Positions 28,678 through 45,755 of a stretch of DNA of 64,000 nt are shown here, one piece after another. A program made the position numbers and the translations under genes. Under the pieces are notes generated by a model. The model was not told the origin of the DNA. It searched no databases and saw only the letters and a list, made by a program, of their open reading frames with translations. The stretch comes from Leisingera aquaemixtae. Its GTDB lineage: Bacteria; Pseudomonadota; Alphaproteobacteria; Rhodobacterales; Rhodobacteraceae. The stretch covers positions 62,001 through 126,000 of the forward strand of contig NZ_JAHVJQ010000003.1 in NCBI RefSeq assembly GCF_019801145.1, given 5' to 3'. Position 1 is the stretch's first letter; each line of letters begins with the position of its first letter.

Positions 28678-28713
28678 ACAGCAACGATCCAGCCAACGGG
28701 AGGCCCCATAGCC

Positions 28714-29175
28714 ATGGCAATATCATTGAAACTCAACGGCCAGACGCATCAGGTCGAGGCCGAGCCCGGAACTCCGCTATTGTGGGTGATCCGGGATGAA
28801 CTGAAGCTGACCGGCACCAAGTTCGGCTGCGGCGTCGCCGCTTGCGGCGCCTGCACCGTGCATCTGGACGGGGAGCCGGTGCGCTCCTGCCAGACCTTTG
28901 TCGAGGACGCCGAGGGCGCCGAGATCACCACCATAGAAGGGCTGAACTCCAAGGTTTCCAAGGCCGTGCAGGACGCCTGGGTGGAGCTGGACGTGGTGCA
29001 ATGCGGCTATTGCCAGTCGGGGCAGATCATGTCTGCCGTCGGGCTGCTGAGCGAAAATCCCAAACCGACGGTGGAAGAAATCGACAGCTTCATGAACGGC
29101 AACGCCTGCCGCTGCGCCACCTACCAGCGCATACGCGCCGCGATCCAGCGCGCATCCGAAATGATGGAGGCCTGA
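28714..29175 (+). CDS. [2Fe-2S] subunit of a molybdenum hydroxylase (IorA/CoxS type)
   Basis: A 153-residue electron-transfer subunit with two [2Fe-2S] clusters. The N-terminal plant-ferredoxin-like cluster is bound by KFGCGVAACGACTV and the later Cys in VRSC. The C-terminal cluster is bound by QCGYCQSGQ and NACRCATYQRI. The closest named relatives are isoquinoline 1-oxidoreductase alpha subunit and similar aldehyde dehydrogenase subunits. It lies one base before the large-subunit gene. Neither a FAD subunit nor a MoCo-insertion chaperone is seen beside it, consistent with the two-subunit type that passes electrons to a cytochrome. Confidence 0.92.
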   Translation: MAISLKLNGQTHQVEAEPGTPLLWVIRDELKLTGTKFGCGVAACGACTVHLDGEPVRSCQTFVEDAEGAEITTIEGLNSKVSKAVQDAWVELDVVQCGYCQSGQIMSAVGLLSENPKPTVEEIDSFMNGNACRCATYQRIRAAIQRASEMMEA

Positions 29176-29176
29176 T

Positions 29177-31354
29177 ATGACCCTGAACACCTCCCGCCGC
29201 GGCTTCCTCAAATCCGCTGCCGCCGCCGCTGCCGTCCTGTATGTCGGCGTCCGTCCGAACGGCGCTCTGGCGGCCGGTTCCGCACCGGCACAGCTGAACC
29301 CGTTTGTGAAGATCAGTGCAGACGGCACCGTCACCGCCATCGTCAAACACTTCGAGAAGGGCCAGGGCCCGGCCACTGGCCTCACTACCCTGATCGCCGA
29401 GGAACTGGGCGTTTCGATGGAGGACATCCAGTACGAATTCGCCCCCTCCGATCCCTCGCGCTATGCCAACCTGGCGTTCGGGCAGATGCAGGGCACCGGC
29501 GGTTCCACCGCGATGGCCAATTCCTTCCTGCAGTACCGCCAGGCCGGGGCGGCTGCGCGCGAGATGCTGATCCAGGCCGCGGCCGAGGCCTGGGGCGCAG
29601 ACACCGCGGAGCTGACGTTGGAGGACGGCATCCTCAAGGGCGCGGGCCAGGAGGCGCCGCTGGCGGAGTTCGTCGCCGCCGCCGCGCAGATGGAGGCCCC
29701 GGCAGAGCCGCGGCTGAAGGATCCCAGCGAGTTCCGTTTGATCGGCAACGCCTCGGTCAAGCGCAAGGACTCCTTGCCCAAGACCAATGGCACCGCGATG
29801 TATGCTATGGACCTGCATCTGCCGAACCAGATGGTTGCCGTCATCATCCGCAGCCCGCGGATGGGCGGGCTGGCCAGCGGGTTTGACGATGCCAACGCCA
29901 AGGAGATCAAAGGCTACATCCGCGCTGCCGTGCTGCCCAATCAGGCGGGTGTTGCGGTCTATGCCGAGGACACCTGGGGCGCGTTCCAGGCCCGCGATGC
30001 AATCACCGTGGACTGGGATTTCTCGAACGCCGAAAGCCGCAGCTCTGACCAGATCCGCGAGGAGCTGCTGGCCGCGGTCAACACGGACCCGGAGTACAAT
30101 GTGACCGGTGCGGACCAGGCCGCCACCGCGGCGCAGATCGACGGCGCGGCGAAGGTGGTGGAGCAGACCTTCTACTTCCCGCTGCTGGCGCATGCGCCGA
30201 TGGAGCCGCTCACCTGCACCATCGAGGCAGACGAGGACGGCGGCGTCACCCTGCATGACGGCTGCCAATTCCCCACCGGGCCGCATATAGCGATGGCGCA
30301 GATATTCCAGCTGCCGATGGAAAAAATTCGCATCAACACGATGTTTGCCGGAGGCTCCTTCGGCCGCCGCGCTACTCCGACGGCTGACTACCAGGTGGAG
30401 GCGGCGCTGGCCTTTGCCCTGACCGACCGCTCGCGCCCGGTGAAACTGGTCTGGTCGCGCGAGGATGACATCACCGGCGGCTATTACCGGCCCGCCGTTG
30501 CGCACCGGGTGCGGGTTGGTCTGGACGCGGATGGCAACATCGCCGGATGGGACCACCGCATTGCCGCGCAACCGATCCTGAAAGGCACTGCCTTCGAAAG
30601 CATGCTCGTGCATGACGGCGTCGACCACAGCTCGGTCGAAGGCGTGGCCGGCAGTCCCTACCAGATCCCTGGCCAGCATGTCGGCCTTACCGATGTGGCC
30701 AAGGCAACCACGGTTCTGTGGTGGCGCTCGGTCGGACACACCCACACCGCCTATGTGATGGAAACGATGCTGGACCAGGCCGCCCATGCTGCAGGCCGTG
30801 ACCCGGTCGAATTCCGCCTTGCTCTTCTGGAGGGCGGCGGCGCCGATCAGCAGCGTCTGGCTGGCGTTCTGAAACTGGCTGCGGAAAAGGGCGGCTGGGG
30901 CAGCGCGCCGGAAGGCCGCAGCCAGGGTATCGCTGTTCACAAGAGCTTTGGCAGCTATGTGGCCGAGGTCGTGGAGATCTCCGGCAACGCCAATGACGGG
31001 GTGAAGATCGAGAAGGTCACCTGCGCGGTGGATTGCGGCATCGCCGTCAACCCGGATGTGATCAAGGCACAAATGGAGGGCGGCATCGGCTATGGCCTCG
31101 GCCATGTGATGCGCAACGAAATCACCCTGACCGAAGGCGAAGTGGACCAGTCCAACTTCCCGGATTACGAGCCGCTGCGGATCGGTGACATCGGCGCCAT
31201 AGAGGTGCACATCGTACCCTCCGCCGAGATGCCTACCGGCGTGGGTGAGCCTGGAACCCCGCCCTCAGCTCCAGCACTGGCCAATGCCATCGCAGTCAAC
31301 GGCCCGCTGGTGACGGAACTGCCGATGAACCTGAACGGGGTCAGCTTCGCCTGA
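29177..31354 (+). CDS. Molybdopterin-binding subunit of a two-subunit aldehyde/N-heterocycle oxidoreductase, Tat-exported
   Basis: A 725-residue xanthine-oxidase-family large subunit. An N-terminal twin-arginine signal (TSRRGFLKSAAAAAAVL) points to periplasmic export with its small partner, which has no signal of its own. Cofactor regions include MQGTGGSTAM, FAGGSFGRRATPTADYQVEAAL and the C-terminal VGEPGTPPSAPALANAI, whose Glu is the conserved catalytic base. It resembles IorB and membrane-associated aldehyde dehydrogenase chains, but the substrate cannot be assigned. It is the last gene of the SDR operon. Confidence 0.92.
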   Translation: MTLNTSRRGFLKSAAAAAAVLYVGVRPNGALAAGSAPAQLNPFVKISADGTVTAIVKHFEKGQGPATGLTTLIAEELGVSMEDIQYEFAPSDPSRYANLAFGQMQGTGGSTAMANSFLQYRQAGAAAREMLIQAAAEAWGADTAELTLEDGILKGAGQEAPLAEFVAAAAQMEAPAEPRLKDPSEFRLIGNASVKRKDSLPKTNGTAMYAMDLHLPNQMVAVIIRSPRMGGLASGFDDANAKEIKGYIRAAVLPNQAGVAVYAEDTWGAFQARDAITVDWDFSNAESRSSDQIREELLAAVNTDPEYNVTGADQAATAAQIDGAAKVVEQTFYFPLLAHAPMEPLTCTIEADEDGGVTLHDGCQFPTGPHIAMAQIFQLPMEKIRINTMFAGGSFGRRATPTADYQVEAALAFALTDRSRPVKLVWSREDDITGGYYRPAVAHRVRVGLDADGNIAGWDHRIAAQPILKGTAFESMLVHDGVDHSSVEGVAGSPYQIPGQHVGLTDVAKATTVLWWRSVGHTHTAYVMETMLDQAAHAAGRDPVEFRLALLEGGGADQQRLAGVLKLAAEKGGWGSAPEGRSQGIAVHKSFGSYVAEVVEISGNANDGVKIEKVTCAVDCGIAVNPDVIKAQMEGGIGYGLGHVMRNEITLTEGEVDQSNFPDYEPLRIGDIGAIEVHIVPSAEMPTGVGEPGTPPSAPALANAIAVNGPLVTELPMNLNGVSFA

Positions 31355-31483: not shown

Positions 31484-32887
31484 TCACCCGCAGGCGACGT
31501 TGATTACCTGCATCTGGGTGTATTCCGCCAGTCCCTCGACCGATTGCTCCACACCCAGGCCAGAGCCCTTGAAGCCGGCCATCGGGATATGCGGGCCGAT
31601 GTTCAGCTGCTGATTGACCCAGATGGTGCCGGACTCGATGCGTCCGGCGACCTCCGTGGCCCGGACCGTGTCTCGCGAATGCACCGAGCCGCCCAGCCCG
31701 TAATCGGAGGCATTGGCGCGGGCGATCACATCGTCGATATCGTCAAAGCGGATCACCGGCAGGATCGGGCCGAATTGCTCCTCGTCGACGATCTTCTGCC
31801 CGTCCGTCACATCCCGGACAATGGTGGGCGGCACGAAATAACCCGGGCCGTCCTTGGCTGCACCGCCGGCGATGATCCGGCCGCAGGCACGGGCGTCCTC
31901 CAGGAAACCCTTGATCTTGTCAAACTGCGCCTTGTTCTGGATCGGGCCGATAGTTGTGCCCTGCTTCATGCCATCATCGACAACCGCCTGTTCGGCAAGG
32001 GCGGCCAGTTCGGCGCAGAAGTCCTCGTAGATGTCACTGTGCACATAGGCGCGCTTTACTGCCAGGCAGACCTGACCGGCGTTGAGGAAGGCGCCGCCGT
32101 AGACCTTTTCCGCAGCGGCCTTCACGTCCACATCCGGCAGCACGATGGCGGGGTCGTTGCCGCCCATTTCCAGCGTCACCCGTTTCATCGTATCGGCGGC
32201 ACTGGCCATGATCCGCTTGCCAGTCTCCGATGAACCGGTAAACCCGATCTTGGCCACATCCGGATGGGCCGTCAGTTTGGGGCCAAGGTCATTGGCGTCG
32301 GTGATGATGTTCACAAGGCCGGCCGGGAAGATACGGGCGCAGATCTCGCCCAGTTTCAGTGCCGCAACCGGAGTGGTCGGCGCAGGTTTCAGAACAATGG
32401 CATTGCCTGCCATCAAGGCGGGCCCGATCTTCCAGCAGCACAAGAGCAGTGGAAAGTTCCAGGCGATGATGCCTGCCACCACTCCCAACGGCTTGTGGCG
32501 GGTCTCGATGCGAAATTCCGCGTCGTCCTGAATGACGCGGTCCGGCAGTTCCAGTGTGGCGGTATGGGCCAGGTAACCCTGCGACCAGGCCACCTCTCCC
32601 TGCGCCTCGGGCAGCGGCTTGCCTTGTTCCAGGGTGATCAGCCGCGCCAGTTCATCCGCCTCTTCGCCGATCGCAGCGGCCAGCGCTTCCACTTTCGCGC
32701 GACGCTCGGCCATCGGGGTGTCTGCCCAGGCCCTTTGTGCGGCCTTGGCGGCAGCCACGGCCTGGTTCATCTGCGCCTCGGAGGCATGCGGCACGCGGGC
32801 AAACACCTCCTCTGTTGCCGGGTTGATCACCTCGATCATGCGCTCCGCCGAAACCTGCTCGCCGTTGATGAGCATGCTGTAGTTCAT
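31484..32887 (-). CDS. NAD(P)-dependent aldehyde dehydrogenase linked to amine oxidation
   Basis: A 467-residue aldehyde dehydrogenase. The catalytic Cys274 is in FLNAGQVCLAVK and the general base Glu240 in RVTLEMGGNDP; the cofactor region IAWNFPLLL ... KPAPTTPVAALKL and FTGSSETGKRI are present. It begins 15 bases after the QhpR stop and is the last gene of the qhp operon. The natural role is therefore oxidation of the aldehyde released from primary amines by the amine dehydrogenase. That enzyme is periplasmic, so the aldehyde must diffuse inward. The family is broad (succinate-semialdehyde to medium-chain aldehydes) and the substrate range is inferred. Confidence 0.92.
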   Translation of the reverse strand: MNYSMLINGEQVSAERMIEVINPATEEVFARVPHASEAQMNQAVAAAKAAQRAWADTPMAERRAKVEALAAAIGEEADELARLITLEQGKPLPEAQGEVAWSQGYLAHTATLELPDRVIQDDAEFRIETRHKPLGVVAGIIAWNFPLLLCCWKIGPALMAGNAIVLKPAPTTPVAALKLGEICARIFPAGLVNIITDANDLGPKLTAHPDVAKIGFTGSSETGKRIMASAADTMKRVTLEMGGNDPAIVLPDVDVKAAAEKVYGGAFLNAGQVCLAVKRAYVHSDIYEDFCAELAALAEQAVVDDGMKQGTTIGPIQNKAQFDKIKGFLEDARACGRIIAGGAAKDGPGYFVPPTIVRDVTDGQKIVDEEQFGPILPVIRFDDIDDVIARANASDYGLGGSVHSRDTVRATEVAGRIESGTIWVNQQLNIGPHIPMAGFKGSGLGVEQSVEGLAEYTQMQVINVACG

Positions 32888-32902
32888 GGTTGTTCTCCCT
32901 GT

Positions 32903-33895
32903 TTATCCGTCAGCCGGGTTTGATTGAGAAAGACAACCACGGCCCTCGGGCGCGGTCTTGGGCAGTGGTGCCAAAGAGTTTGCGTCCTGCGCCAAATTTC
33001 CGCTGTAATCCTGGGCGCTGAGGAAACCACGCGGCGAGCAGCCGAAGTGCCGTCGGAAGATGCGGTTGAAATGGGAAATGTCACCAAACCCGGCGCTATA
33101 GGCGACCTGGGCAATCGGCACTCGGCGGCCCTGCCGCGCCGCATGGCCCAACTTGCCTGCCACCGCGGCCAGACGTGTGCGAGCCAGGCAATCGGTGAAG
33201 CTGGTGCCGTTCTCCTGAAATTCACGCTGCAACTGGCGGCGCGACAACCCGGTGCGGGCGGCGAGCGTGTCCACCGTCAACTGCGGATCGGTGCTGAGCA
33301 GCTCCAGTGACTCGCGAACCAGCCGGAACCGGTGTCTTCGGCTGCTGAGGCTGCCGCCTCCCGGGTACGCCCCGGCCGCAAAGGCCAGAGGCACCAGTTC
33401 GAAGATGTAGCCAGCACCGTCCTGAGCGCCTTCCGCATCCAGCAGCCCGCAAAGGCTTGCGTGCAACGGATGCTGTCTGGCTATCTTGCAGCCCGCCTGC
33501 GGCATCTCCCGGCGCCTCTCCAGCACCAGCGCCCGCGGCAGATGCGCGGACAGGAAGGCAGCGGGCCGGCCGGTGATGTTGAGCTCCGCTGTGCGGGTTG
33601 AATCGAGCAGGAGGAACTCCCCGGGCCTCAGCAAGGTCTCACGGCCCGCGTGCCGGATGCCGGTTTCGCCATCCAGCTGGTGCAGCAGAAAGAAATGCTC
33701 CTGCTCGTCGCGCAGGATGCCCTGGCGGGTGCGTTCAATGCGGGCGGGAAGGCAGCGGATTTCGGCAACGTCGACGCCGCTGCGCTGGTGCAGCAGAAAA
33801 GATCCCGTCCAGCCCGGCGCCGACCGGTCCGGAGTAGCATAGTAGTGGCCGCAGTTGGCGCGCAGGGTGCTGTTCCAGTTGTCAAAGCAGATCAT
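32903..33895 (-). CDS. qhpR: AraC-family regulator QhpR
   Basis: A 330-residue regulator. The C-terminal AraC domain is clear (LTVDTLAARTGLSRRQLQREFQENG and VPIAQVAYSAGFGDISHFNRIFRRHFGCSPRGF); the N-terminal part is an AraC-binding-like domain (FLLHQLDGETGIRHAGRETLLRPGEF). The ATG overlaps the QhpE stop as ATGA, so the start is well fixed and the long upstream frame can be ignored. In Paracoccus denitrificans QhpR activates the qhp operon in response to amines such as n-butylamine. Encoding it inside the operon would give positive feedback. A second, unrelated AraC protein sits at the other end of the locus. Confidence 0.88.
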   Translation of the reverse strand: MICFDNWNSTLRANCGHYYATPDRSAPGWTGSFLLHQRSGVDVAEIRCLPARIERTRQGILRDEQEHFFLLHQLDGETGIRHAGRETLLRPGEFLLLDSTRTAELNITGRPAAFLSAHLPRALVLERRREMPQAGCKIARQHPLHASLCGLLDAEGAQDGAGYIFELVPLAFAAGAYPGGGSLSSRRHRFRLVRESLELLSTDPQLTVDTLAARTGLSRRQLQREFQENGTSFTDCLARTRLAAVAGKLGHAARQGRRVPIAQVAYSAGFGDISHFNRIFRRHFGCSPRGFLSAQDYSGNLAQDANSLAPLPKTAPEGRGCLSQSNPADG

Positions 33896-34548
33896 GCGGC
33901 GTTCGGGCCTCCCGCCCCAATGCGTTCCCGTCCGGTGAAGGCGGGTGTTTGCAGCATCTTCTCTATCCCTCCTTTTGCGCAGGCCCGGGCCAGCAGTCCG
34001 GTAAAATGCGCGGCCGCCAGACTGGCCCCCCGAACCGGCACGCCGGCCCCTCCCGGACAGGCGCCGAAACGTGCGCCGGGCAGGTTCAGCAGCGACCACT
34101 GGCCAGGGGCGCAGCGTGCATCGCCTTGCACCGAAAGAACCCCCGTGCACCCAGCCGGATAGACCGGCGTTCCCCGGGCCGGAGCCGAGGCAACGAGCAG
34201 CTTGCCCGCCTCCAGCACCGCGGTTACGGCTTCAGCCAGCATCGGGCTGGCACCGGCGTGTCCAAAAGAGCAGTGGACAATCTCCGCCTCTGACTCGGCA
34301 GCGCGGAGCAGTGCTTCCGCCACGGTTGTGAGCTGGGTGGACAGACGGCCCGGAAAAATGCTGAACCCCAGGATCTGCGCTTCCGGCGCGTTGACGCGGA
34401 TGGCGGCGGCAATGTGGCTGGCGTGCAGTGCAGCCGGGCTTTCGGCAGCCCTGGGATGTATCCTGCACAAATCATTGCGGGCGGTGAGGCCGGGGGTGTC
34501 GGTTGCCAGCGGCCCGTCGATCAGCGCAATCAGCGCGGCGCGGCTCAT
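33892..34548 (-). CDS. qhpE: QhpE, subtilisin-like protease removing the leader of the QhpC subunit
   Basis: A 218-residue compact S8-type protease without a signal peptide, so cytoplasmic. The triad can be read as Asp11 (ALIDGPL), His42 (LHASHIAAAI, the HGTHVA position) and Ser176 (RGASLAAAHFTG, the GTSMA position). The oxyanion Asn of ordinary subtilisins (AAGN) is not obvious; the segment reads VASAPARG. In the known system QhpE cleaves the N-terminal leader from cross-linked QhpC before export. It overlaps qhpF and qhpR by 4 bp at both ends. Confidence 0.85.
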   Translation of the reverse strand: MSRAALIALIDGPLATDTPGLTARNDLCRIHPRAAESPAALHASHIAAAIRVNAPEAQILGFSIFPGRLSTQLTTVAEALLRAAESEAEIVHCSFGHAGASPMLAEAVTAVLEAGKLLVASAPARGTPVYPAGCTGVLSVQGDARCAPGQWSLLNLPGARFGACPGGAGVPVRGASLAAAHFTGLLARACAKGGIEKMLQTPAFTGRERIGAGGPNAA

Positions 34549-36284
34549 GTGCTGGCCTCCGACACGTCAATCTCCAGGTCGAATCCCCTGCCAGCCGCAG
34601 CGCCGCCGTGGGCAGTCAAGATGCGGGTGGCATGGGGAAACGCCGTGTCGATATGGGTCAGGATCCGGGTTGCGGTGGCCGGATCCACTTCCGACAGCGC
34701 TTCATCCAGGATCAGGATGTCGAACGGCGGCAGCAGAACACGCAAGAGGCACAGCCGCTGGCGCTCGCCGCCCGACAATGTCAGCCCGCTTTCGCCCAGC
34801 AACGTGTCAAGGCCCTCAGGCCCGCAGAACCTGTCCGCCAGGCCAAAAAGTTCCAGCATCTGCCACACCCGCGCTTCATTCTCAGGCTTGGCCCAGAAGG
34901 CACGGCTTTGGAACAGGTTGCCGCGAAGGCTGGCCCGCAGGGTATAGGGGCGCTGACCTGCATAGGCTACCCGCTCTGGCAGGGTAGCACCGCTCAGAAG
35001 GCTCAGATCCGCACCGCCCATGGTGACACGGCCGGTCAAGGGCTGAACCCGCCCGCAGAGCACCGAGAGCAGCGAGGTCTTGCCCGCACCGCTGGCTCCC
35101 TTGAGGGCCACCCGGGTGCCTTCGGGAATGTTCAGGGTGAGCGGGCCCAGAGGTGCGGCGTCACCGCGGGCCACGGTTGCGTTGTCCAGCTGCAGCACAT
35201 AGCCGGAAGGAGAGAAACGGTCAGAAAGGGAAGGGGGAGATTGCATAACCGCATCCAGCCGGGCCACCGCAACCTTGACCCGCGCCTGCGCGTGCCAGAG
35301 GCCAAGCAGCGATTGCATCGGCCCGGTCATGAATCCCATATAAGCGATGAAGGCAATGAGCGAACCCAGTGGCCACTCGCCGCGTATCACCATCAGTCCG
35401 CCGACCAGAAAGATTGCGGAGCGGATCAGCGCCGACAGCAGCACCGGCACCGCGCGGGTAAACTCTCCCCACAGGTTCTGCGCGATCAGGCGGCGGCTCA
35501 GCCCGGCATGATCGCGCAGGCTGCGCCGCTCTGCCCAGCGAATGCCGCGGGCGGCTTGCAGGGCGGGCAGGCCGAACAAGGTCTCCGACAGCCCCGCCGA
35601 ATACCGTCCTTGCATCTCGCGCACTGCTGCGGCGTGGCGTTCGGTCCGGGGCCGTGCCCAGACCAGAAACAGCAGCTCTGCCGGGGCCAGGAGTGCCGTC
35701 AGCAGCCCCAGCCGCCAATCCAGCACCATTAGCATCGCAGAGCCGCCCGCCAGCCGGATCAGCGCCGAAGAACCGCCCAGCACCGCGTTGAAGGCAAACT
35801 TTTGCACTTCCGCCGCGTCGCCATCAACCCGCGCCAGCAGCTCGCCTGCGCGCTGGGCGGCAAACCAGCCGGAAGGCTTTGCAGCCAGCCGTGACAGAAG
35901 CCGCTGCCGCATCCGCGCCAGCATCTGCACTGACGCGCGCATATGCAGGATGTTGCTGAGCGCGCCGGTTCCGGTGGCCAAGAGGCCAATTGCGAACAGT
36001 GCCGCGGACCAGACCACCAGCTGCGACGCATCCCCCGCCATCAGCCCGCGATCGATCACCAGCTTGCTGATGTAGGGCGGCAGCAAGCCAAGCCCGGCGG
36101 CGGCAAAACTGATCAGCAAGAGCACCGCCAGCCGCCACCGGTGCGGGCGCAGCAAGGGCAGCAGCCAGTCCGCGGTGGCGGCGGTAAACAGCGCCGCACC
36201 CGCGCGTGAGGGCAGGCGCGGCCAGGCCCGGGCGGCAGCAGTGCCGCCCGGCTGGGAGGAGAGTTTGGCAGCAGGCCCGCTCAT
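34545..36284 (-). CDS. qhpF: QhpF, ABC exporter (fused membrane and ATPase domains)
   Basis: A 579-residue half-transporter with about six membrane helices (20-320) and a C-terminal ATPase: Walker A GASGAGKTSLLSVL, signature LSGGERQRLCLLRVLL, Walker B FDILILDEALSEVD and the switch His in LTAHGG. It belongs to the CydDC/lipid-exporter-like group. In Paracoccus QhpF is needed to deliver the matured small subunit across the inner membrane. The gene overlaps qhpB and qhpE by 4 bp each (ATGA). The context gives the name; sequence alone would only say exporter. Confidence 0.9.
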   Translation of the reverse strand: MSGPAAKLSSQPGGTAAARAWPRLPSRAGAALFTAATADWLLPLLRPHRWRLAVLLLISFAAAGLGLLPPYISKLVIDRGLMAGDASQLVVWSAALFAIGLLATGTGALSNILHMRASVQMLARMRQRLLSRLAAKPSGWFAAQRAGELLARVDGDAAEVQKFAFNAVLGGSSALIRLAGGSAMLMVLDWRLGLLTALLAPAELLFLVWARPRTERHAAAVREMQGRYSAGLSETLFGLPALQAARGIRWAERRSLRDHAGLSRRLIAQNLWGEFTRAVPVLLSALIRSAIFLVGGLMVIRGEWPLGSLIAFIAYMGFMTGPMQSLLGLWHAQARVKVAVARLDAVMQSPPSLSDRFSPSGYVLQLDNATVARGDAAPLGPLTLNIPEGTRVALKGASGAGKTSLLSVLCGRVQPLTGRVTMGGADLSLLSGATLPERVAYAGQRPYTLRASLRGNLFQSRAFWAKPENEARVWQMLELFGLADRFCGPEGLDTLLGESGLTLSGGERQRLCLLRVLLPPFDILILDEALSEVDPATATRILTHIDTAFPHATRILTAHGGAAAGRGFDLEIDVSEAST

Positions 36285-37360
36285 CCCTGCGGCACGACAT
36301 GCAGGGTGGAAACCGACATATCCCCGCCGGAAGGCATCCGGATCTCGCCCACCCGCTCCAGCGTCTCGCTGTCGTAGATGCCGATGTCATCATTCGTGCC
36401 TGCGACATAGATCTCACGCCCGTCGGTGGAGACGTTGATGACGTAATAGGTGTGCGGCAGGTCTACCCGCTTGACCAGTTCCTGGGTTTCCAGGTTGTGC
36501 TTGGACAGCTGAGTATAGACGCCATAGAGGTGCTTGGGGTCTGTCGCGCTGCGCACTGCGGAGAACATCAGCACCTCGAAGGAAGCGAAATCTGCAATCT
36601 CGGTCTCCCCGGTGGTCAGATCGACCGACTGGTAGCCCCAAACGAAATCCGCCAGTTCCTGCTGGGTTTCATCGGTGAACACCGCCGCCGTATACATCAG
36701 CAGCATCTCGTCGTTCTGGCTACCGGTCGGCCAGAACGCCAGCACGTCCGGTGGGCTGTAGGTGGGACGGTCCCAGCTGGCATTTGCAATCGCCACCTCG
36801 GTCTCGCCGTTGCTGGGGTCAACCCGATAGATTTCATGCCCGGCGACGTACACTTGGCCGTTGCGGTCGCTCGCCATCAGCGTCGAGCGGCGCGGTGCCT
36901 CATAGATCGCAGCAGGTTTTGCCTCCAGCCCGGCGCTCGCGTTATAAACCGCAAATTCCGGCTGCATCACCTCATAGCGGTCGGTTTTCTTATGCACCGG
37001 ATTGCGCACCGTGAAGATCTGGCTGCCATCCTTGGAGACGGCAAGCGAGGCCAGCGAGCGGCGGGTCACATCGCCCTCGGACTGGGCGGCGTGAAAGACC
37101 TTTTCACAGGTCTCGATATCGACACCGACCACATCCTGCCAATGGTTCAGCAGCACATATGCGATGCGGTTGTCCGGCGACATGGCGATCACGCCGGGTG
37201 TCACATTCGCCCCCAGATCGCAGTCGGCCTTGACCGAGCGGTCCCCGGCATCAAAGACATAGAGGTTGGAGGGCCGGGCCACCGTCACCAGAAGGTCGCC
37301 AGCGGCCAGCGGCAGGGCTGAAGCGCAAAACGCAGCAGCAGCAAAAAGCGCGGATTTCAT
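36281..37360 (-). CDS. qhpB: QhpB, beta subunit of quinohemoprotein amine dehydrogenase
   Basis: A 359-residue exported subunit with a signal peptide (SALFAAAAFCASALPLAA) and a seven-bladed beta-propeller of the YVTN/amine-dehydrogenase type, seen in repeats such as VIAMSPDNRIAYVLLNHWQDVVGVDIET and INVSTDGREIYVAGTNDDIGIYDSETLE. It forms the scaffold on which the CTQ-bearing small subunit sits in the periplasmic heterotrimer. The start has GAGGAG upstream and lies 13 bases after the qhpC stop; longer frames overlap qhpC. Confidence 0.92.
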   Translation of the reverse strand: MKSALFAAAAFCASALPLAAGDLLVTVARPSNLYVFDAGDRSVKADCDLGANVTPGVIAMSPDNRIAYVLLNHWQDVVGVDIETCEKVFHAAQSEGDVTRRSLASLAVSKDGSQIFTVRNPVHKKTDRYEVMQPEFAVYNASAGLEAKPAAIYEAPRRSTLMASDRNGQVYVAGHEIYRVDPSNGETEVAIANASWDRPTYSPPDVLAFWPTGSQNDEMLLMYTAAVFTDETQQELADFVWGYQSVDLTTGETEIADFASFEVLMFSAVRSATDPKHLYGVYTQLSKHNLETQELVKRVDLPHTYYVINVSTDGREIYVAGTNDDIGIYDSETLERVGEIRMPSGGDMSVSTLHVVPQG

Positions 37361-37373
37361 GATGCGGGTCTCC

Positions 37374-37697
37374 TCAGGTTTCGGCGTCGGTGGGATAGGT
37401 GGTGCCAAGCGCGCGCCAGTCCTTGGCGGCGTTGGGGGCGCCTTCGTCCCAGTTCTGGTGGTTGACCATGATGTCGGGCACCTGCGCAGGCCACCAGCAT
37501 GGGTCGGAGCAGCCGTAAAGATCCGCCTCCATCGGCTGGCATAGCGCGGCAAGGCCGCCAAAGGGGTCGACCTCCCAGCCCGGGTCGAATGTGGTGGCGC
37601 ATCCGGCGGTCACGGTCTGCATCGCGCGGACCTCTTCCATCTGGCCATCGGCAGCGGCTTGCTGAACGCGTTCGGCTTTCTGATTGAGCGGTTTCAT
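37374..37697 (-). CDS. qhpC: QhpC, CTQ-bearing cross-linked small subunit of amine dehydrogenase
   Basis: A 107-residue precursor whose first ~26 residues are a non-Sec leader. The body has four cysteines (33, 53, 63, 67) and acidic partners that line up with the mature Pseudomonas putida/Paracoccus chain at a constant offset of 26: Cys7-Glu16, Cys27-Asp33 and Cys41-Asp49 thioethers correspond to 33-42, 53-59 and 67-75. The CTQ pair Cys37-Trp43 corresponds to Cys63 and Trp69 in GCSDPCWWP. All positions are conserved, so the subunit should be functional. The gene overlaps qhpD by 4 bp. A longer frame to 37898 overlaps qhpD and is not real. Confidence 0.94.
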
Positions 37698-39118
37698 TTT
37701 CCAAACGCCCTCCTCGGCGCAACATGGTGGTGAAAGAACTGCGGTGCCTGGGCGATCAGCCGTGCATAGGCGGCGACGCCAAAGTCGATCCAGTCGCGCA
37801 TCAGGTCGCAGTAGTGATAGGTCGGCATCAAAGGATCGCTGAAATGGGCGTAGCTCTCGTGGTAGCAGCCGCCCGCGCACAGGTTGCGTATCCGGCAAGT
37901 GGCGCAGCCCTTCTCGGTGCGGTCAGACCGCGCCTTGATGAAGCCCGACAACTCCTTGCGCTTGATGCCTTCGTCGACGGTGCCGAACTGGTCCATTTCC
38001 GAGCCGGCGAACCGGTGGCAAAGGTTCAGCGCGCCATCGTGGTTGACTGCCAGAATCCCAACTCCGGCCCCGCAGGGCAGCGCCTTGGAGCGCCCCTCGT
38101 AGAGGTCGTTCATCATTTGATGCATGTTGGAAAAGCCGATGTTACGGCCTTGCAGCGCCTCTTCGACATAGCGGCGGCCCAGGGATTTCATCCCCTCGAA
38201 TACCTCCAGCAGCTCGGCGCCGTTCAGGTTGAAGGCATCCATCTCGCCCGAGGTGACCGGCGAGAAGCCCACCTCGGCGAAACCGATATCGTTCTTCAGA
38301 TGGTCCCAGATCTCGACGATATTTGTGATGCCTGCGGTCAGGGTGACGCGGGCGCCCACCGGTTTCGATGTGTACCGCGACAACAGCAGCCGCGCCTTGG
38401 CGGCCACGGTGTCGTAGGTGCCCTTGCCGCCCACCGTCTTGCGGTTCAGGTCGTGCTGCGCCTTGGGCCCGTCGATGGAGACAGTCAGACCAAAGCGGTG
38501 TGCGTCCAGCCAGTCGATCAGCGGCTCAGTCAGCAGCGTTGCATTGGTGGTGAGGCTGAAGTTCACCTCTTTGCCAAGTGCTGCGAAATGCGGCTCGGCC
38601 CAGTCCACCACCTGCCGGATCAAGGGCAGGTTCGACAGCGGCTCGCCGCCGAAGAACACGATGTTATAGCTGTCCCGGTCCGGGTTTTCAGCCAGCAGCA
38701 TCTCTGCTGATTTCCGCGCGGTGTCAAAGGCCATCTTCTGGCCCTTCGACGGCACTGCCAGATCCTCCTTGTAGCAGTAGGAGCAGGCCAGGTTGCAGCC
38801 GGTGTTGACGTTCAGAACGATGGTCGTGAGCGGGAAGGTCTCGATCTCGATCGGCGTCCGTTCCGGCTGCAGCGGGCGGCCGTCGTTGACGATATCCAGC
38901 CGCACCAGCCCATCCAGCCGCGCCGCCGCATCCTCTGCCGCAAACCGCGCCTCGAACTCGTCCATCGAAAACGCCTGTTCTTGCGCAGCATAATCGAGGA
39001 TGTCGCGGTCCACTCCGTCCATCTCAAAGATCGAGGTGGTGGGGACGTGGAACAGCACCTCCCGCCCCTCGACTTCAACCCGGTGTGCATTGGCCGACTG
39101 ATAGTGAAAGTCTTTCAT
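37694..39118 (-). CDS. qhpD: QhpD, radical-SAM/SPASM enzyme forming thioether cross-links in QhpC
   Basis: A 474-residue radical-SAM protein. The [4Fe-4S] motif CNLACSYC is at Cys108, Cys112, Cys115 (CxxxCxxC). A C-terminal SPASM region contains [19 protein letters not shown] and [14 protein letters not shown], then YHYC, providing ligands for auxiliary clusters. In the studied system QhpD makes the three Cys-to-Asp/Glu thioether bonds in QhpC with no extra carrier domain. It lies directly before its substrate gene (ATGA overlap) and 16 bases after qhpA. The start has GGGGGAGA upstream. Confidence 0.94.
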
Positions 39119-39134
39119 GATCTCTCCCCCTGTT

Positions 39135-40655
39135 TCAGCGGATTGGCGGGTCGATGAAGCGCTGCACGGTGACGATCAGCATGGCTTCTGCCTGCTGGCC
39201 CATCGCCTCGGCCTGCACTGTCAGCTCACCCGCGTTGTTGGCGCTGAAGGGGCGGTCGGGATTTGGACCTGCAATGGCGGGCAGGAAGATGCCGTTGGCC
39301 TGCATAACGCCGGAAAATTCGGTGTCCTTCATATGCGCCGCATGCTCATGCGCGTTGGCCACGGTCCATTGCGCCTCGACCCGGCCGATGCGCACGTCAT
39401 CCTCGGTCCCAGCCTCGCCGTCGGAGCCGTTCCACATGCCGACCGCGTTGAAATAGGCAGGCACCGCTGCCGGGCCTTCATCGCTGCCGCCGCCCACGCG
39501 AGCGATGGTGAACTCAGGCTCCACCCGCAGGCTGTCGACAGAAGTGTAATGGGCGATCTGCCCTTCAGCCCCTCCCGCGCTGAAGGTGACAACGCCGTTG
39601 CCCTCCGCCGCCAGCGATAGCGCTGCGCCAAAGGTGTTCGCCGTGGCCTCACCAGCAGAGGCGTCCAGCCCGTCCAACCCGGTGCCAACCACCTGTACCT
39701 GCGCTTCCCCTGCCGGAACGGCAGAAGGAACTGTGCCCAGGATGACACTGCCGGCCCCCTCCCGGACACCGCTCAATGGCGCGCCCAGGGCATCGTTGCC
39801 GCGGTCGAACTGGCGGCCCTGCAGGCTGTTTCCATCCTCCGACAGCGCCAGCACCTGGCGATAGGGGGTGCCGCCAATGTCCAGATTGGCACGCCATTCA
39901 TAGCCGGTGTAGAGGTTCATCTGGCCGGATGCGGGATGCACGGTGCCGTCCGCCGTCACGAACTCGCCGCTGACCTGATAGGGCGAGGCATCGCCCGTGA
40001 CCGTCAGCTTCCCATAGGCTTCGCCGATGCCGGGCAGGTCGGTCATCACCACCCAATTGCCCGCCACCGGCTGCTTCTCCGCAGCCTGCCAATCTGTCCA
40101 GGCAGCAGTCTCCAGCGGATTCTGCTCCGCCAGGAAGCCTGCGATCTCGGTCCGGGCGATCTTGTACCATTCCCGGTCGCGGCCAAGCGCCTGGTATTCG
40201 ATGGTTGGGAAATGGCCGACATGGAAATCCATGTGCAGCTCCCACTCCTCCGCGGTGCGGTTCTGCAGCAGCCCCCGCGCGCCTGTATGGCAACGGGAGC
40301 ACATTGAGGCGAAGGGCTCGTCGAAGCTCTCCTGCGCGTTCGGGTCCTTCTCCAGGGCATAGCGGAAAGGTGCTGCTTCGGAGGGGGCGAGGCCCTGGGT
40401 GTCCGCCAGATGCTGCACGATGGCGCGGCGGTCCTCGGCGCTGATCTCCAGCCCGTGCGACTGCTGCATCCGAACGATGGTCATCATCCAGCCTTCAGGC
40501 GACTTGCGCTGGCCGCTGATCCGGCTCAGCCCGTTTTCCTCTGCCGTGTGGCAGCTGGAGCAGATATTCTGCAGCTCCTCGCTGGCCAGCGCCGGCGCGG
40601 CGCCCGCCACTGATACCAGAAGTGCAGCCGTCAGACCGCGGGGTCGTAGTTGCAT
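39135..40655 (-). CDS. qhpA: QhpA, diheme alpha subunit of quinohemoprotein amine dehydrogenase
   Basis: A 506-residue exported subunit with a signal peptide (GLTAALLVSVAGAAPALA). The N-terminal domain has two CxxCH heme-c motifs: CSSCH at 32-36 and CSRCH at 119-123. The rest is three beta-barrel domains rich in Gly, as in the Paracoccus and Pseudomonas alpha subunits. Electrons from the CTQ site pass through the hemes to an external cytochrome c or azurin-like acceptor. The ATG has GGGAG upstream and overlaps the end of qhpG by 25 bp. Confidence 0.93.
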   Translation of the reverse strand: MQLRPRGLTAALLVSVAGAAPALASEELQNICSSCHTAEENGLSRISGQRKSPEGWMMTIVRMQQSHGLEISAEDRRAIVQHLADTQGLAPSEAAPFRYALEKDPNAQESFDEPFASMCSRCHTGARGLLQNRTAEEWELHMDFHVGHFPTIEYQALGRDREWYKIARTEIAGFLAEQNPLETAAWTDWQAAEKQPVAGNWVVMTDLPGIGEAYGKLTVTGDASPYQVSGEFVTADGTVHPASGQMNLYTGYEWRANLDIGGTPYRQVLALSEDGNSLQGRQFDRGNDALGAPLSGVREGAGSVILGTVPSAVPAGEAQVQVVGTGLDGLDASAGEATANTFGAALSLAAEGNGVVTFSAGGAEGQIAHYTSVDSLRVEPEFTIARVGGGSDEGPAAVPAYFNAVGMWNGSDGEAGTEDDVRIGRVEAQWTVANAHEHAAHMKDTEFSGVMQANGIFLPAIAGPNPDRPFSANNAGELTVQAEAMGQQAEAMLIVTVQRFIDPPIR

Positions 40656-41995
40656 GAATCAGTCTCCCTGTTTGTGGTGTCCCAGGGGATCTGCGCCCCC
40701 TCGGTGAAGCCTTGTGACAAAAGCCATTGATGGATCGCCCGTGCCGCCTGCGGCGGCGCCTCGGGCAGAACCGTGCTGTGAAAGCGGGCGGCATCCGGCA
40801 GCGGCTGGCCGTTCAGGCGGCGCAGCAGAGGCACGATCTCCTGTCCGGCGGTAAAGGCCGCACCGCCGGGGGCGTCCCGGGTGATCAGCACCTCGCGCCG
40901 AGCCAGATGGCCGTCCTGCACGACAACACGCTTGCCGATGTGCGGGCGTATGTCCGTGCCATGGGCAGGGGCGTCATCCGGCCAGGCCGCGCGCTCTTGC
41001 CAGAATGGTGTCAGAAAACCTGCCTCGCGGTAAAAATCGCGGCCCACCCGCGCTTGCCGCCAGAAAGTCTCCGCCACCCGGTTGCGGTAGAAGTCTCGGG
41101 CAATGTCCGTCTTCCCGGCCAGCAGCGCCCGCGCGATGGGCACAGCCATCAATGCCGAGGACACTGCCCAAAACATGCCGTGCCCTGACAAAGGGTCCAG
41201 TGCCACGGCCGCGTCGCCCAGCCGGGGGCAGCGCGGGTCCAGTTCCGGTGCCGCCAGCCGCGGGGCAATTGCGTTGACACTGGGGCGGCGGGGCAGCTGG
41301 CGGGCGGCTTCGCCCAGCACTCTGTTCCACAACGTCTCTACAGCTGCCTTGCCTTGCGCACGGCTCAGCGAGTCCGCGCTGCCCACCGCCTGCAGCCAAA
41401 GCTGATCCTGGCCCGCTGGGACCGACCAGATCCACCCGCCCTGCCGCGCTTCTATACGCGGCGTTTCCATGTCTCCGTCCAGGAGCGGCACCAGACCGGC
41501 CACGGAAATCGTGTTCGGCCCTGCAAGCTCAGCCCGGCTCAAACCCGAGCATTGGCGGGGCGCCCGGCGGCCGCGGGCCTCAAACAGCAGCCGCGCCGGC
41601 AGGCTCCGGCCATCGGACAGGCGGATTTCGCCGTTGCCCGGCCGGACGCTGGCCACGGCTGCCAAAACAACGCTCACGCCCTCGGCCCGAGCCGCGTCCA
41701 GAAGCCCAGCGTCAAAGGCGCCGCGGTCTGCAAGATGCTCGCTGTTCTGGATGCTCTGGAAGGGGCCCCAGCTAACATGGCGCTGCGCTGGGGGGCCGAT
41801 CCCCGCGAGCGGCAGCCCGTGCCTTGCCAAGATCGCGGCCACGCGGGCGGACATACCTTCAATTCGCGGCGCGCGCGGCGGCAGGGTTGCCAGCGCCACT
41901 CTGAAGCCCGCCCGGGTCAGCAGCACAGCTGCCACCGACCCGGCCGGGCCGCCGCCTGCGATTGCAATATCAAAGGTGCCAATTTGAGGTGCCAT
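40631..41995 (-). CDS. qhpG: QhpG, FAD-dependent monooxygenase for CTQ formation
   Basis: A 454-residue flavoprotein with an N-terminal dinucleotide fold (FDIAIAGGGPAGSVAAVLLTRAGF) and a second FAD-binding region (RCPRLGDAAVALDPLSGHGMFWAVSSA) typical of tryptophan-halogenase/hydroxylase-like monooxygenases. In Paracoccus QhpG dihydroxylates the CTQ-precursor tryptophan in QhpC after thioether formation. Here it is the first gene of the operon, ahead of qhpA. The start at MAPQIGTFDIAIAGG was chosen; the frame extends to 42166 through the operator region, but that part is not protein-like. Confidence 0.87.
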   Translation of the reverse strand: MAPQIGTFDIAIAGGGPAGSVAAVLLTRAGFRVALATLPPRAPRIEGMSARVAAILARHGLPLAGIGPPAQRHVSWGPFQSIQNSEHLADRGAFDAGLLDAARAEGVSVVLAAVASVRPGNGEIRLSDGRSLPARLLFEARGRRAPRQCSGLSRAELAGPNTISVAGLVPLLDGDMETPRIEARQGGWIWSVPAGQDQLWLQAVGSADSLSRAQGKAAVETLWNRVLGEAARQLPRRPSVNAIAPRLAAPELDPRCPRLGDAAVALDPLSGHGMFWAVSSALMAVPIARALLAGKTDIARDFYRNRVAETFWRQARVGRDFYREAGFLTPFWQERAAWPDDAPAHGTDIRPHIGKRVVVQDGHLARREVLITRDAPGGAAFTAGQEIVPLLRRLNGQPLPDAARFHSTVLPEAPPQAARAIHQWLLSQGFTEGAQIPWDTTNRETDSCNYDPAV

Positions 41996-42030
41996 TTGCC
42001 TAGGCTGCCCCGGCAGGCTGCCCCTTGTGG

Positions 42031-42067
42031 CGGACACATCCGGACAACAAGACGACATTTCCGGACA
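42031..42067. promoter_or_regulatory. Three CGGACA repeats in the divergent qhpG/AraC promoter region
   Basis: The hexamer CGGACA occurs in the same orientation at 42031, 42041 and 42062, so the spacings are 10 and 21 bp, one and two helical turns. The second and third copies extend to TCCGGACA. The set lies 36 bp upstream of qhpG and 89 bp upstream of the divergent AraC gene. It has the form expected for AraC-family operators controlling either or both genes. Confidence 0.55.
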
Positions 42068-42155
42068 GAATCGGCTGCTGCGGCCAAAGGTGCGGCAATT
42101 TTTCTGGAATGGCGGATTTTTACGGTATTCTGGCGCAATCCTGAGGAACTGCGCG

Positions 42156-43175
42156 ATGCCACACACTTACCAGCCCCGGATTTCCGCCTCTACTTTGAGC
42201 GACCCGCTGCGGGCCGTTGAATTCATGAATGGTGATGCGGACAGGTTATTTCAGGTTTCCGGTATCGGGCCGGATGACCTGATCGGAGAAATCGGCCTGA
42301 AGAAGTTCGTGGACTTCTGCGAGCACGCGTCCGGAAACTTGGATCTGCCCGACTTCGGCTGGCGGGTCGGCTCAGTCTTCGATCTGCAAAACCTTGGCGC
42401 GCTTGGGGAATTCATCAATCAGGCGCCAACTCTTGGTGCGGCCCTTTCACTGTTCCGCAATGGCTTTTCAATCGTGCAAAGCGACTCTGAATTGCAGCTG
42501 ACGATTGAGGCGGACAGGGCAATGCTGGCTTACAAAATACTGGACCCCGGCATCTGGCCGCGGCAACAGGATGCGGAGCTGACACTGGCCGTTTTCCACA
42601 ATCTGATCAGGTCCGCGGCGGGGCCGGACTGGCGCCCTGAACTGGTGACTCTGGAGCACGAATCAAGCGCGTTGCCAGACGCCCGCAATGCCGGTCCGCG
42701 ATGCCCTATTAATTTTGCGGCCAACGCGAACACGCTGGTCTTCCCGGCGAGCTTGCTGGGGCTGCCTTTGCCCGGCCGGGTGAACCCGGCCTTCAAGGAG
42801 GTTTCGCAAACGATTGCCTCCACTGCCAGGCAAAGCGAACGCGCTGCGCCCGTTACGGTTCGGGTACGCCGAGAGCTTTTGAAACGTATTGGCCAGGAGA
42901 GTTTCGAGCAAACAGTTGTTGCAGCTGCGCTGGGCATGTCCCGCCGGACTTTACGGCGCAAGCTGGAGGAGGAAGGGCAGAAGTTTTCCCGGCTGCTGGC
43001 AGGGTGCCGGATGGAAATTGCCAAACGCATGCTGCTGACCCCTGGGACGCAGCTCCATGAAATTTCGGAACGGCTGGGCTATTCGGAAGTGTCCGCCTTC
43101 GAACGGGCGTTCCGGCAGCAGGAGGGAGCAACGCCCAGCCAGTTCAGGAAACAGTTTTCTGCCGGCACTTCCTAG
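42156..43175 (+). CDS. AraC-family regulator with arabinose-binding-like N-terminal domain
   Basis: A 339-residue regulator of the PF12625 (OruR/ArgR-like) class: N-terminal domain with IGLKKFVDFCEHASGNLDLPDFGWRVG ... IVQSDSELQLTIE, and a C-terminal AraC domain (VAAALGMSRRTLRRKLEEEGQKFSRLL, LHEISERLGYSEVSAFERAFRQQEGATP). The ATG has GAGGA upstream; the frame from 42027 would run through the promoter. It is transcribed away from qhpG and is not related to QhpR. It could activate qhp in response to an amine or product, or regulate another amine gene set. Confidence 0.9.
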   Translation: MPHTYQPRISASTLSDPLRAVEFMNGDADRLFQVSGIGPDDLIGEIGLKKFVDFCEHASGNLDLPDFGWRVGSVFDLQNLGALGEFINQAPTLGAALSLFRNGFSIVQSDSELQLTIEADRAMLAYKILDPGIWPRQQDAELTLAVFHNLIRSAAGPDWRPELVTLEHESSALPDARNAGPRCPINFAANANTLVFPASLLGLPLPGRVNPAFKEVSQTIASTARQSERAAPVTVRVRRELLKRIGQESFEQTVVAAALGMSRRTLRRKLEEEGQKFSRLLAGCRMEIAKRMLLTPGTQLHEISERLGYSEVSAFERAFRQQEGATPSQFRKQFSAGTS

Positions 43176-43340: not shown

Positions 43341-45755
43341 CTACTCGGCTGCGATGGCGCGTTCCGCATCGGGTTCCTGCCCGAACGGCTCCCACCTCAG
43401 GCCGCCGCAGTAGCGCCAGGCAAGCCTGCCTTCGGTGTCCATGGCGATCAGGTGAAGCCAGCGGTTGTCGAACAGTTCCCGAACCCCGGCATGGCGCTCC
43501 AGCACGGCAGTCATTGCTTCGCGCGGGGCTTCAATCACCACAGAGAGCCGCAGCGGGTCGTGCTGCAAGGCTTCGCCATCGTGCACGGACTGCCACGGCA
43601 GGCCCGGGCGGAGGCTTCCGCCGTTTCCCTCCAGCACACCGATACCGCCAGCCACATTATGCAGCAGCTTATTGCCGCCGCCGAACAGGGCCGGCGCGAC
43701 GGAGGAGCCATAGTACTGCAGGATGATCCAGCTGGCGACCACTACGGGCGCCGTCATGATCAGCTCCAGAACGCCGAAGCCGTCGTCGCTGCGCCAGTCG
43801 TAGCTGTGCAGGAAGGCCTGGCCTGACAATCCGCTGGCCTTGGTGCGGTGGCGGGGGGCTGCGATGAAGGCACGGCAGCCGGCCAGGCCCCATTCGGGGC
43901 GCAGTTCCGCCCAGTCCCTGGCCCGGCGCATCAGGTCGCCGCCGCTGTCAGCCCGCGGCAGGCGGGCCGCGCGTTCCGCCCTGGCCAGAAGGCCAGCGGC
44001 GTCCAGCCAGCCTCTGAGCCGGGTGAGATCTTCCGCATGGGCGCCCTTCGGCACGTCACCATCGTAAAGAGTGACTGCATCCGTAGTGGTATTGTGCAGA
44101 GCCGGAACAAAGATCGTATCGTCCGGAATGCTGATGCCCTTGGCCGCAAGGCCTGCCCGCACCTCAGTGTCGTTCAGGAGGCCGGCAAGCAGGCGTGCGT
44201 TCACGTCACCGGCATGGCCGCCGCAGGCGCCGCAATGCAGCGCGCTTTCATGCGGGTTGTTGGTAACACCGGCACCATGCCCGGCCAGCATGACCACCGG
44301 GGCAAAGTTGTCCGTCAGGGACATTGCGCCAAGGACTGAATGCGCCATTCCAATCCGGTCTTCCAGCCTGATAGCCGGATCAAGCCGGGGGGCGGGGCCG
44401 GCAGCTTGCTTGCTGCCCGCAGCCAGGGAGTCACGCAGCAGCTTGCCTGCATAGACCGGGCCTGCCGCCTCGACAAAGGCGAAGGAGGAGACCGCAGCCA
44501 GTTTGAAACGGCCCCAGGCGCGTTTCGCCCGCGCCGCATAGCGCTGGTCCAGGTCGCGGGGCTCGGATTCCTTGGCATTGGAGGCGATGGCAGCAGGCAG
44601 CAGAACGGGGCCGCGTGCCTCGATCACGTCGGAGGCTTCGGCCTGGTGGGCGCTGGCGAGGCCGAAGAAACCTGCAAAACCAAAGGTGGCGATACCCTGG
44701 TCCTGAGCTTCCAGTGCGCGGCGGAATACTTCGGACCGCACGTCGATGCAGAAGGCAGCCTGCAGCTTGGGCCGGTCTTGGGCTTGCGGCGCAGGGCCAG
44801 CCGAAACCGCAAGGGTCTGTGCCAGCCTCCGCTGCTCAGCCCGCTCCACCGCATCCTGCAGCACCGCATCGATGATCATCTCGCGGTCCGGGGTCAGCGC
44901 GGTTTCGTGCCGGGTCACGGTATCTGCCCATTTGGCTGCGATTTGCTCCTCATAGAGGCCGAAAAGTGCCTCGTCATAAACCATGCGGATGGCAAGCAGC
45001 TCGGTCACGGTGTTGTCGCCTTTGCCGTCCAGTTCAGCCTGCCACAGCAAGCCGCGGGCGTACTGCGCCCAGCCTCCCAGGGTGATCAGCCAGCGGTGGA
45101 ATGCGGTTTCAGCCGCTGCGGTGCTCAGCCCCAGCGTTTCGCAGGCGCGGCCGATGGCACGCCAATGCGACCGGCTGGAGGCTGCCACGAAAGCGCCAAA
45201 GCCGGTCAGCCCGTGGATTTCGGGTGTCAGATCGCGCGAGGCAAACTCGCGCCAAGCGGCAAACGCACCGCCGGAGCGGTTCGGCTGCCACAGGGCCTGA
45301 CCCTGGTCGAAATGGCTGGCTGCCCAGACACCGATGCGGTCCTCGATCAGGCCCGGCCAGTCAACACCTGACACATCGGCAGCCAACTCGGCGACGGTGG
45401 GCAGCGCCTTTGGCACAGGTGCCGGATTGCTGAGGGCAGCTTTGACGTCAGCCAAGCCGGGGCGGCCGAACTGGCCGTCAAAGGCGGCAAGCGCAGCCCG
45501 CAGGTCATCCTCTAGGATCTTTCCGGTCTCGAATTGATGTGCCCATTGGGCACGTTCCGGGGTGATCCGGGTTCCGGCCACCCGCGCCATGCGGGCGGCG
45601 GTAACAGCCAGCGGTTCGGATGCCTGGCCCAGGAAGGGGTTCACCGCGACACTTGCCGACAGCGGGAACAGCGGCGGGACAGCCTTGGCTGACCTGGTTG
45701 CCTCTGCAACGAGTTCAAGCAACGGGGCGGGGAAGGTTTCGAGTTTTGCAAACAT
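43341..45755 (-). CDS. dabA: DabA, catalytic subunit of the DIC (bicarbonate/CO2) uptake complex (DUF2309)
   Basis: An 804-residue cytoplasmic-face protein related to beta-carbonic anhydrase. The zinc/active-site residues of Halothiobacillus DabA (Cys351, Asp353, His524, Cys539) map to Cys336 and Asp338 in AFCIDVRSE, His493 in [12 protein letters not shown], and Cys508 in [11 protein letters not shown]. The 2-residue and 15-residue spacings are identical. DabA hydrates CO2 vectorially, driven by the cation gradient through DabB. It follows dabB by 11 bases. Confidence 0.93.

Follow-up and report, generated by a model that had tools for sequence, protein, structure and literature searches.

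Positions 31484-41995 of a 64,000-nt stretch of Leisingera aquaemixtae DNA (the window, to which coordinates refer; it is part of the 591,403-bp contig C3, one of 50 that make up a 4.88-Mb genome) carry a row of qhp genes for a quinohemoprotein amine dehydrogenase (QHNDH) that ends in an aldehyde dehydrogenase (ALDH) gene, and raise the question of whether this row is a self-contained unit for amine oxidation and which gene controls it. The sequence-only reading had described a complete qhp operon with a built-in ALDH, all known qhp functions being held in a single nine-gene unit with its regulator as the eighth gene. We found that the locus is a complete, ordinary copy of a known amine-oxidising gene set, plus a genus-specific accessory module, and that a tenth gene, divergent and beyond the reported span, is the true qhpR. 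We put at about 0.86 the probability that the locus would form a functional qhp operon for periplasmic primary-amine oxidation whose 3′ end carries an accessory regulator-ALDH cassette. G-numbers below denote the genomes compared and L-numbers the loci fetched.

Assignment of the regulator

Curated NCBIfam equivalog cut-offs were used as the membership bar for gene identities. Against the QhpR model NF049968 (cut-off 250 bits), the eighth gene of the row, an AraC-family gene at 32903-33895 on the minus strand that had been called qhpR, scored 56.5 bits, whereas a gene for a 339-aa AraC-family activator at 42156-43175 on the plus strand, divergent from qhpG, scored 335.3 bits. The in-operon gene is thus FeaR-like (145.7 bits against FeaR model NF007243, cut-off 199; hereafter feaR) and not QhpR, and the true qhpR is the divergent gene. 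The single-unit claim therefore fails, with qhpR outside the span and a second regulator in its place, while the rest of the description stands in that the QHNDH biogenesis genes and the ALDH gene are all there. The ATG at 42156 is the inferred start of qhpR, in an open reading frame (ORF) that itself opens at 42027 (42027-43175); the gene annotated beside qhpG measures 1026 bp on one Leisingera plasmid and 1056 bp on another. A divergent qhpR adjoins qhpG here, at 15 other Leisingera loci and at three other qhp loci.

Gene order and core genes of the operon

All nine ORFs of the row are on the minus strand, open and intact, which bears out the row as first described. They follow the order qhpG-A-D-C-B-F-E, then feaR, then the ALDH gene. 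By coordinates, qhpG (40631-41995) overlaps qhpA (39135-40655) by 25 bp (40631-40655); a gap of 16 bp precedes qhpD (37694-39118), which overlaps qhpC (37374-37697) by 4 bp; qhpC and qhpB (36281-37360) are separated by 13 bp; further 4-bp overlaps join qhpB to qhpF (34545-36284), qhpF to qhpE (33892-34548) and qhpE to feaR; and 15 bp lie between feaR and the ALDH gene (31484-32887). The spacing reported earlier, with 4-bp overlaps from qhpD onward and a qhpC-qhpB gap of 13 bp, agrees with these figures.

The alpha subunit, QhpA, scored 505.5 bits against TIGR03908 (cut-off 274) and has three Pfam QHNDH alpha domains, two CxxCH haem c motifs in its translation (CSSCH and CSRCH) and, by eye, a Sec-type signal peptide; a signal peptide of the same type was seen by eye in QhpB, the beta-propeller beta subunit (TIGR03907, 368.5 bits, cut-off 223). 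The 107-aa gamma subunit precursor QhpC, which becomes the cysteine tryptophylquinone (CTQ) protein, scored 152.9 bits against NF037958 (cut-off 50) and 134 bits against Pfam PF08992 (cut-off 25). In a gap-free alignment to PDB entries 1jmx_G and 1jju_C it keeps the CTQ Trp as well as all Cys residues and Asp/Glu cross-link positions; the pairing of these residues we take to be that of the gamma-subunit structures. Among the maturation proteins, the radical SAM/SPASM thioether maturase QhpD scored 706 bits against TIGR03906 (cut-off 453) and carries the motif CNLACSYC, and QhpG, a 454-aa FAD peptidyl-tryptophan dihydroxylase, scored 366.9 bits against NF049967 (cut-off 240), had 7ctq ('Peptidyl tryptophan dihydroxylase', 162 bits) as its best PDB match and showed, by eye in the translation, the FAD motif GGGPAG. 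The subtilisin-like leader protease QhpE barely cleared its cut-off (NF049966, 167.2 bits against 165); its residues D11, H42 and S176, conserved in 18 or more of the 19 QhpE proteins aligned, would form the catalytic triad according to the subtilase pattern. There was no QhpF-specific model among the families listed (25 of 159), and QhpF was taken as the probable ABC exporter of the gamma subunit only by its Pfam ABC exporter domains (PF00664 and PF00005) and its conserved position. Because the models were over cut-off and the cross-link, haem and triad residues are kept, a quinohemoprotein amine dehydrogenase should be able to form.

A putative QhpR operator

Within the 160-bp region that separates qhpG from qhpR is a TGTCCGG direct repeat, laid out as TGTCCGGAAATGT-N8-TGTCCGGATGTGT on the minus strand (42067-42034), whose two half-sites, both of the form TGTCCGGnnnTGT, are 21 bp apart start to start and which ends 38 bp before the ATG of qhpG. 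When 19 loci were aligned (16 from Leisingera, with Ruegeria marina, a Marinibacterium metagenome-assembled genome (MAG) and G638), 21 of the 34 repeat columns were identical in every row, compared with 5 of 126 in the remaining intergenic region. Direct repeats 21 bp apart upstream of a target promoter fit AraC-type activators, and we propose the TGTCCGG repeat as a putative QhpR operator. A 28-base pattern taken from the repeat has one match in the window (0 expected). Across all 4.88 Mb of the genome, a looser pattern matches exactly at this locus alone, has no 1-mismatch site and has four sites with 2 mismatches; a backwards control pattern gave two sites. The support lies in conservation outside Leisingera and not in this rarity, since the pattern was derived from the same region. 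One terminator-like match was also found between qhpR and qhpG (0.4 expected).

Distribution and gene order elsewhere

According to one account, qhpABCDEFGR genes occur in more than 1300 species, in varying arrangement, order and strand (PMC7876137). Counting this genome each time, we found qhpD over cut-off in 16 of the 21 genomes from the genus, in 8 of 295 from the family and in 7 of 398 from the phylum. The earlier description of the host as a marine bacterium holds, this being a member of the Rhodobacteraceae from a marine genus with a QhpD 93-98% identical to those of Leisingera strains. In the plasmid collection, 26 records from four genera hold qhpD at E<=1e-100, and the locus is matched by 14 from Leisingera, of which 12 cover at least 80% of it in one place and two are interrupted by the point where the record begins. 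With qhpD also over cut-off in 16 genomes of the genus, the locus is no product of chance. In G682 the locus is on a 4.14-Mb contig, so it has sat on different replicons. Record NZ_CP041161, a linear 14.3 kb consisting mostly of this operon and a ParB-family gene, may be a fragment. We also noted that L008 (JAHVJD010000006.1), titled Nocardioides marinus, carries a Leisingera qhp locus (QhpD 96%) and is a mislabelled or mixed record.

In all, 48 loci were fetched as stretches of 19-21 kb, duplicate Leisingera loci being counted once, and 17 full-size qhp loci from outside Leisingera were counted (left out were L114 and L121, on short contigs; L118-L120, radical SAM relatives without qhpA-C; and L011, the same place as L115). 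The synteny comparison showed that the order R|GADCBFE, with qhpR divergent, is shared by Ruegeria marina (L012), the Marinibacterium MAG (L115) and G638 (L117), all three stretches being without feaR and without this ALDH; we therefore rejected the idea that placing qhpG first is peculiar to this locus. At the 3′ side of qhpE, where Leisingera has feaR and the ALDH gene, the G638 stretch has an ORF whose start resembles, by eye, the acyl-CoA ligases that adjoin the ALDH elsewhere. A built-in ALDH is not unusual either, given that 11 of the 17 non-Leisingera stretches contain one (a raw count). ALDHs 57-59% identical to that of the window lie beside qhpR at L018 (Paracoccus onchidii), at L108 and on P. 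pantotrophus plasmid pPAN2; at the other nine of the 11 loci the identity is just 36-39%.

The feaR-ALDH pair

The ALDH (PF00171, 506 bits), in which no signal peptide was seen by eye, was below the cut-offs of the NCBIfam equivalogs for StyD phenylacetaldehyde dehydrogenase (391 bits against 850 and 345 against 800), and no ALDH-type model was over cut-off among the 25 of 43 models listed, the best being PRK13473 (421 against 615). At E<=1e-100 it matched just two PDB entries, 8yen, an unnamed ALDH, and 4o5h, a phenylacetaldehyde dehydrogenase. Whether the amine is n-butylamine or phenethylamine is not readable from the sequence. Phenethylamine is possible as a substrate, because the genome carries a gene for a phenylacetate-CoA oxygenase of the paaA type (511 bits against a cut-off of 280); weighing the other way, close relatives of the ALDH adjoin AMP-binding CoA ligases elsewhere, and the one such ligase compared with NCBIfam had a fatty-acid CoA ligase model as its best match, at 823.9 bits, just under the cut-off of 832.

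Within the genus, an ALDH of at least 91% identity is present in all 16 qhp-bearing genomes and in none of five others, one of which has a 47% relative, and feaR is present in 13 of the 16 and none of the five, as a single copy each at E<=1e-20. Linkage to the operon was seen in 15 of 16, the feaR-ALDH pair of G691 being on a short contig other than that of its qhp genes. Across the 295 family genomes, this one included, an ALDH at E<=1e-175 occurs in eight and a FeaR-like protein at E<=1e-22 in 11. A plasmid of Paracoccus sp. SMMA_5_TC has feaR (47% identity) and the ALDH gene (82%) side by side, next to an AMP-binding ligase gene; no qhp gene was found in the 19-kb stretch and no qhpD match in the plasmid record, the chromosome lying outside this search. 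In G638 the two genes (44% and 78%) are adjacent, and the qhp operon which that genome also has is at least 1.6 Mb away from them. In G407 the ALDH gene (82%) is followed by a CoA ligase gene, and feaR (47%), about 7 kb away on the same contig, adjoins the heavy and light chains of a tryptophan tryptophylquinone (TTQ) enzyme nearest aromatic amine dehydrogenase, the heavy chain giving 158 bits to that enzyme and 68 to methylamine dehydrogenase. These TTQ chains lie, at 11920-16367 of L163, with a thioredoxin-like protein and an ORF with a cytochrome c domain. More distant ALDHs (62-63%) in G463, G479 and G458 have a CoA ligase (G463, G458) or a DAO-type oxidoreductase (G463, G479) beside them, and no feaR was seen adjoining them. 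Because feaR and the ALDH gene occur outside Leisingera without qhp genes beside them, the tail of the Leisingera operon looks like a captured accessory cassette.

Alternative explanations

Several observations weigh against a functional operon carrying a regulator-ALDH cassette. The operator is defined from the region it would serve and rests on conservation, not on binding, and when 24 qhp loci were scanned for TGTCCGG pairs 20-22 bp apart, no 0-mismatch site was found beyond L011/L115, L012, L116 and L117; a single 1-mismatch site lay inside qhpC of L109, and the 2-mismatch matches showed no common position, although at L112 one fell between qhpA and qhpG. The qhpR-qhpG intergenic region gave no sigma-70-like promoter (0.1 expected). 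The in-operon regulator misses the FeaR equivalog cut-off and so resembles FeaR without belonging to it, three genomes lack feaR with the rest intact, and in G638 the pair adjoins a pyrroloquinoline quinone (PQQ) alcohol dehydrogenase and not an amine enzyme. The assignment of the regulator itself could be reversed, with feaR as the operon's real QhpR and the divergent gene an unrelated neighbour, given that both are AraC-family genes and that feaR sits in the operon and overlaps qhpE. The scores on the QhpR model, by which we rejected feaR as QhpR, make this scarcely credible, as do the presence of the divergent gene at all 16 Leisingera and the three other R|GADCBFE loci, against 13 of 16 for feaR, and the occurrence of QhpR homologues of 34-38% identity at L018, L108, L112, L113 and L142. 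It is likewise quite improbable that the ALDH belongs to a different pathway, such as the oxidation of fatty or aromatic aldehydes, and stands beside qhp by accident. Relatives of 62-82% identity do adjoin an AMP-binding ligase in Paracoccus sp. SMMA_5_TC, G407, G463 and G458, a FAD-dependent (DAO) oxidoreductase in G463 and G479 and the PQQ enzyme in G638, but within Leisingera the gene tracks qhp without exception and begins only 15 bp after feaR, and ALDHs 57-59% identical are also found beside qhp at L018, L108 and L142.

The absence of feaR from L125, L130 and L135, which keep the qhp genes and the ALDH gene, shows that feaR is not required. In a six-protein tree of 15 of the 16 Leisingera loci (L122, on a short contig, was left out) these three make up a clade of their own (support 99) within the loci that carry feaR; its grouping with L134 has a support of 94, and a deeper node, from which L116/L124 are excluded, has a weak 74. 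The DNA preceding the ALDH gene of the three resembles the 3′ end of feaR. Given this nesting and the resemblance at the junction, and with the deeper node weak, feaR was probably, if not provably, lost once in this clade, and we rejected its ancestral absence there as less likely. The loss also lends some weight to the idea that feaR is a decaying passenger, brought in by the ALDH cassette and without a function in the qhp operon, as does its identity between strains, 76-83% against 91-97% for the ALDH. We nevertheless think this rather unlikely: feaR is open and free of internal stops in 13 of 13 carrier genomes, overlaps qhpE by 4 bp both here and in NZ_CP041161, and is about as variable as QhpR (75-80%) and QhpE (75-83%). 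We favour a functional qhp operon with an accessory feaR-ALDH cassette.

Neighbouring genes

Three further groups of genes flank the locus in the window. Convergent with the qhp operon, at 27838-31354 on the plus strand, are genes for a short-chain dehydrogenase/reductase, a [2Fe-2S] subunit and a molybdopterin subunit with a Tat signal; the last is xanthine dehydrogenase-like, under the cut-off of the enzyme models listed, and the group probably encodes a periplasmic molybdenum hydroxylase or aldehyde oxidase. Beside qhpR, at 43341-47317 on the minus strand, DabA (PF10070, 813 bits) and an adjoining NuoL/Mrp-like protein make up a DAB-type inorganic carbon transporter pair, with a LysR gene at 47432-48322; Leisingera sp. 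SS27 (L007) has a dabA 72% identical that likewise adjoins qhp. A TorS-type hybrid sensor kinase (PF21689; 22561-25488, minus strand) and a periplasmic binding protein (gene at 25583-26635) are a possible trimethylamine N-oxide (TMAO)-type sensing pair.

Comparison with known systems and proposed mechanism

The eight gene functions assigned here, that of QhpF by domains and position, are those of the qhp systems of Paracoccus denitrificans and Pseudomonas putida, both solved gamma subunits aligning with QhpC and QhpG matching 7ctq. The locus differs from those systems in having qhpG first, qhpR divergent and a FeaR-like gene and an ALDH gene in the row, and pPAN2 of P. pantotrophus has yet another layout, with A-D-C-B-E-F in a row, G divergent and the ALDH gene beside R. 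The pea genes of Pseudomonas putida U, reportedly described by Arias and colleagues in 2008 as a QHNDH plus the phenylacetaldehyde dehydrogenase PeaE, resemble it in coupling a QHNDH to an ALDH, leading from phenylethylamine to phenylacetate. The feaR-feaB-tynA genes of E. coli resemble it in combining an AraC-family regulator, an ALDH and an amine-oxidising enzyme. TynA is a copper amine oxidase, whereas a PF01179 search of this genome found no match to that family. The G407 cluster pairs a FeaR-like gene and the same type of ALDH with a tryptophylquinone amine dehydrogenase; it differs in that the enzyme is of the TTQ and not the CTQ type and that its ALDH gene, next to a CoA ligase gene, lies apart from feaR. 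Published work records a QHNDH with phenylacetaldehyde dehydrogenase in Pseudomonas (PMC3644233, which also tabulates pea genes of other strains) and the activation by E. coli FeaR of tynA, for the amine oxidase, and feaB, for phenylacetaldehyde dehydrogenase (PMC4640556). In the open-access literature, searched mainly by title and abstract, we found neither an account of a qhp operon that includes a FeaR-like gene nor one of qhp genes in Leisingera.

We propose that QhpR, acting at the TGTCCGG repeat, would turn on qhpG-A-D-C-B-F-E-feaR-ALDH as one transcript; PMC7876137 describes control of qhp by an n-butylamine-inducible regulator. QhpD would then make three Cys-Asp/Glu thioethers in QhpC, as known for the family and as the conserved residues suggest here, QhpG would dihydroxylate the CTQ tryptophan, QhpE would cut off the 28-residue QhpC leader and QhpF would export QhpC to join the Sec-exported haem c alpha subunit and the beta subunit, the same source assigning thioether formation, Trp dihydroxylation, removal of a 28-residue leader and export to these four proteins. 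The periplasmic enzyme would convert the amine to an aldehyde and ammonia, and the cytoplasmic ALDH would oxidise the aldehyde to an acid. The FeaR-like protein, which accompanies this ALDH, may sense amine or aldehyde as a second regulator that the operon can do without. More tentatively, the locus might be a composite under two-tier control, in which QhpR senses the amine via the TGTCCGG operator while the FeaR-like protein and the ALDH, once captured, form a portable cassette for 'aldehyde sensing and disposal', paired independently with chemically different periplasmic quinoprotein dehydrogenases, the shared signal being the aldehyde and not the amine; on balance we would not bet on this. 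If true, the partners of the cassette would be the CTQ amine dehydrogenase in Leisingera, the TTQ aromatic amine dehydrogenase in G407 and the PQQ alcohol dehydrogenase in G638.

These results leave the knowledge of CTQ biogenesis unchanged. They correct the regulator assignment for the Leisingera qhp locus, give a candidate QhpR operator that is open to testing and make a naturally feaR-less clade available for comparison. They also show a regulator-ALDH pair alongside different amine-oxidising systems, and mark amine use as an often plasmid-borne trait in the marine genus Leisingera.

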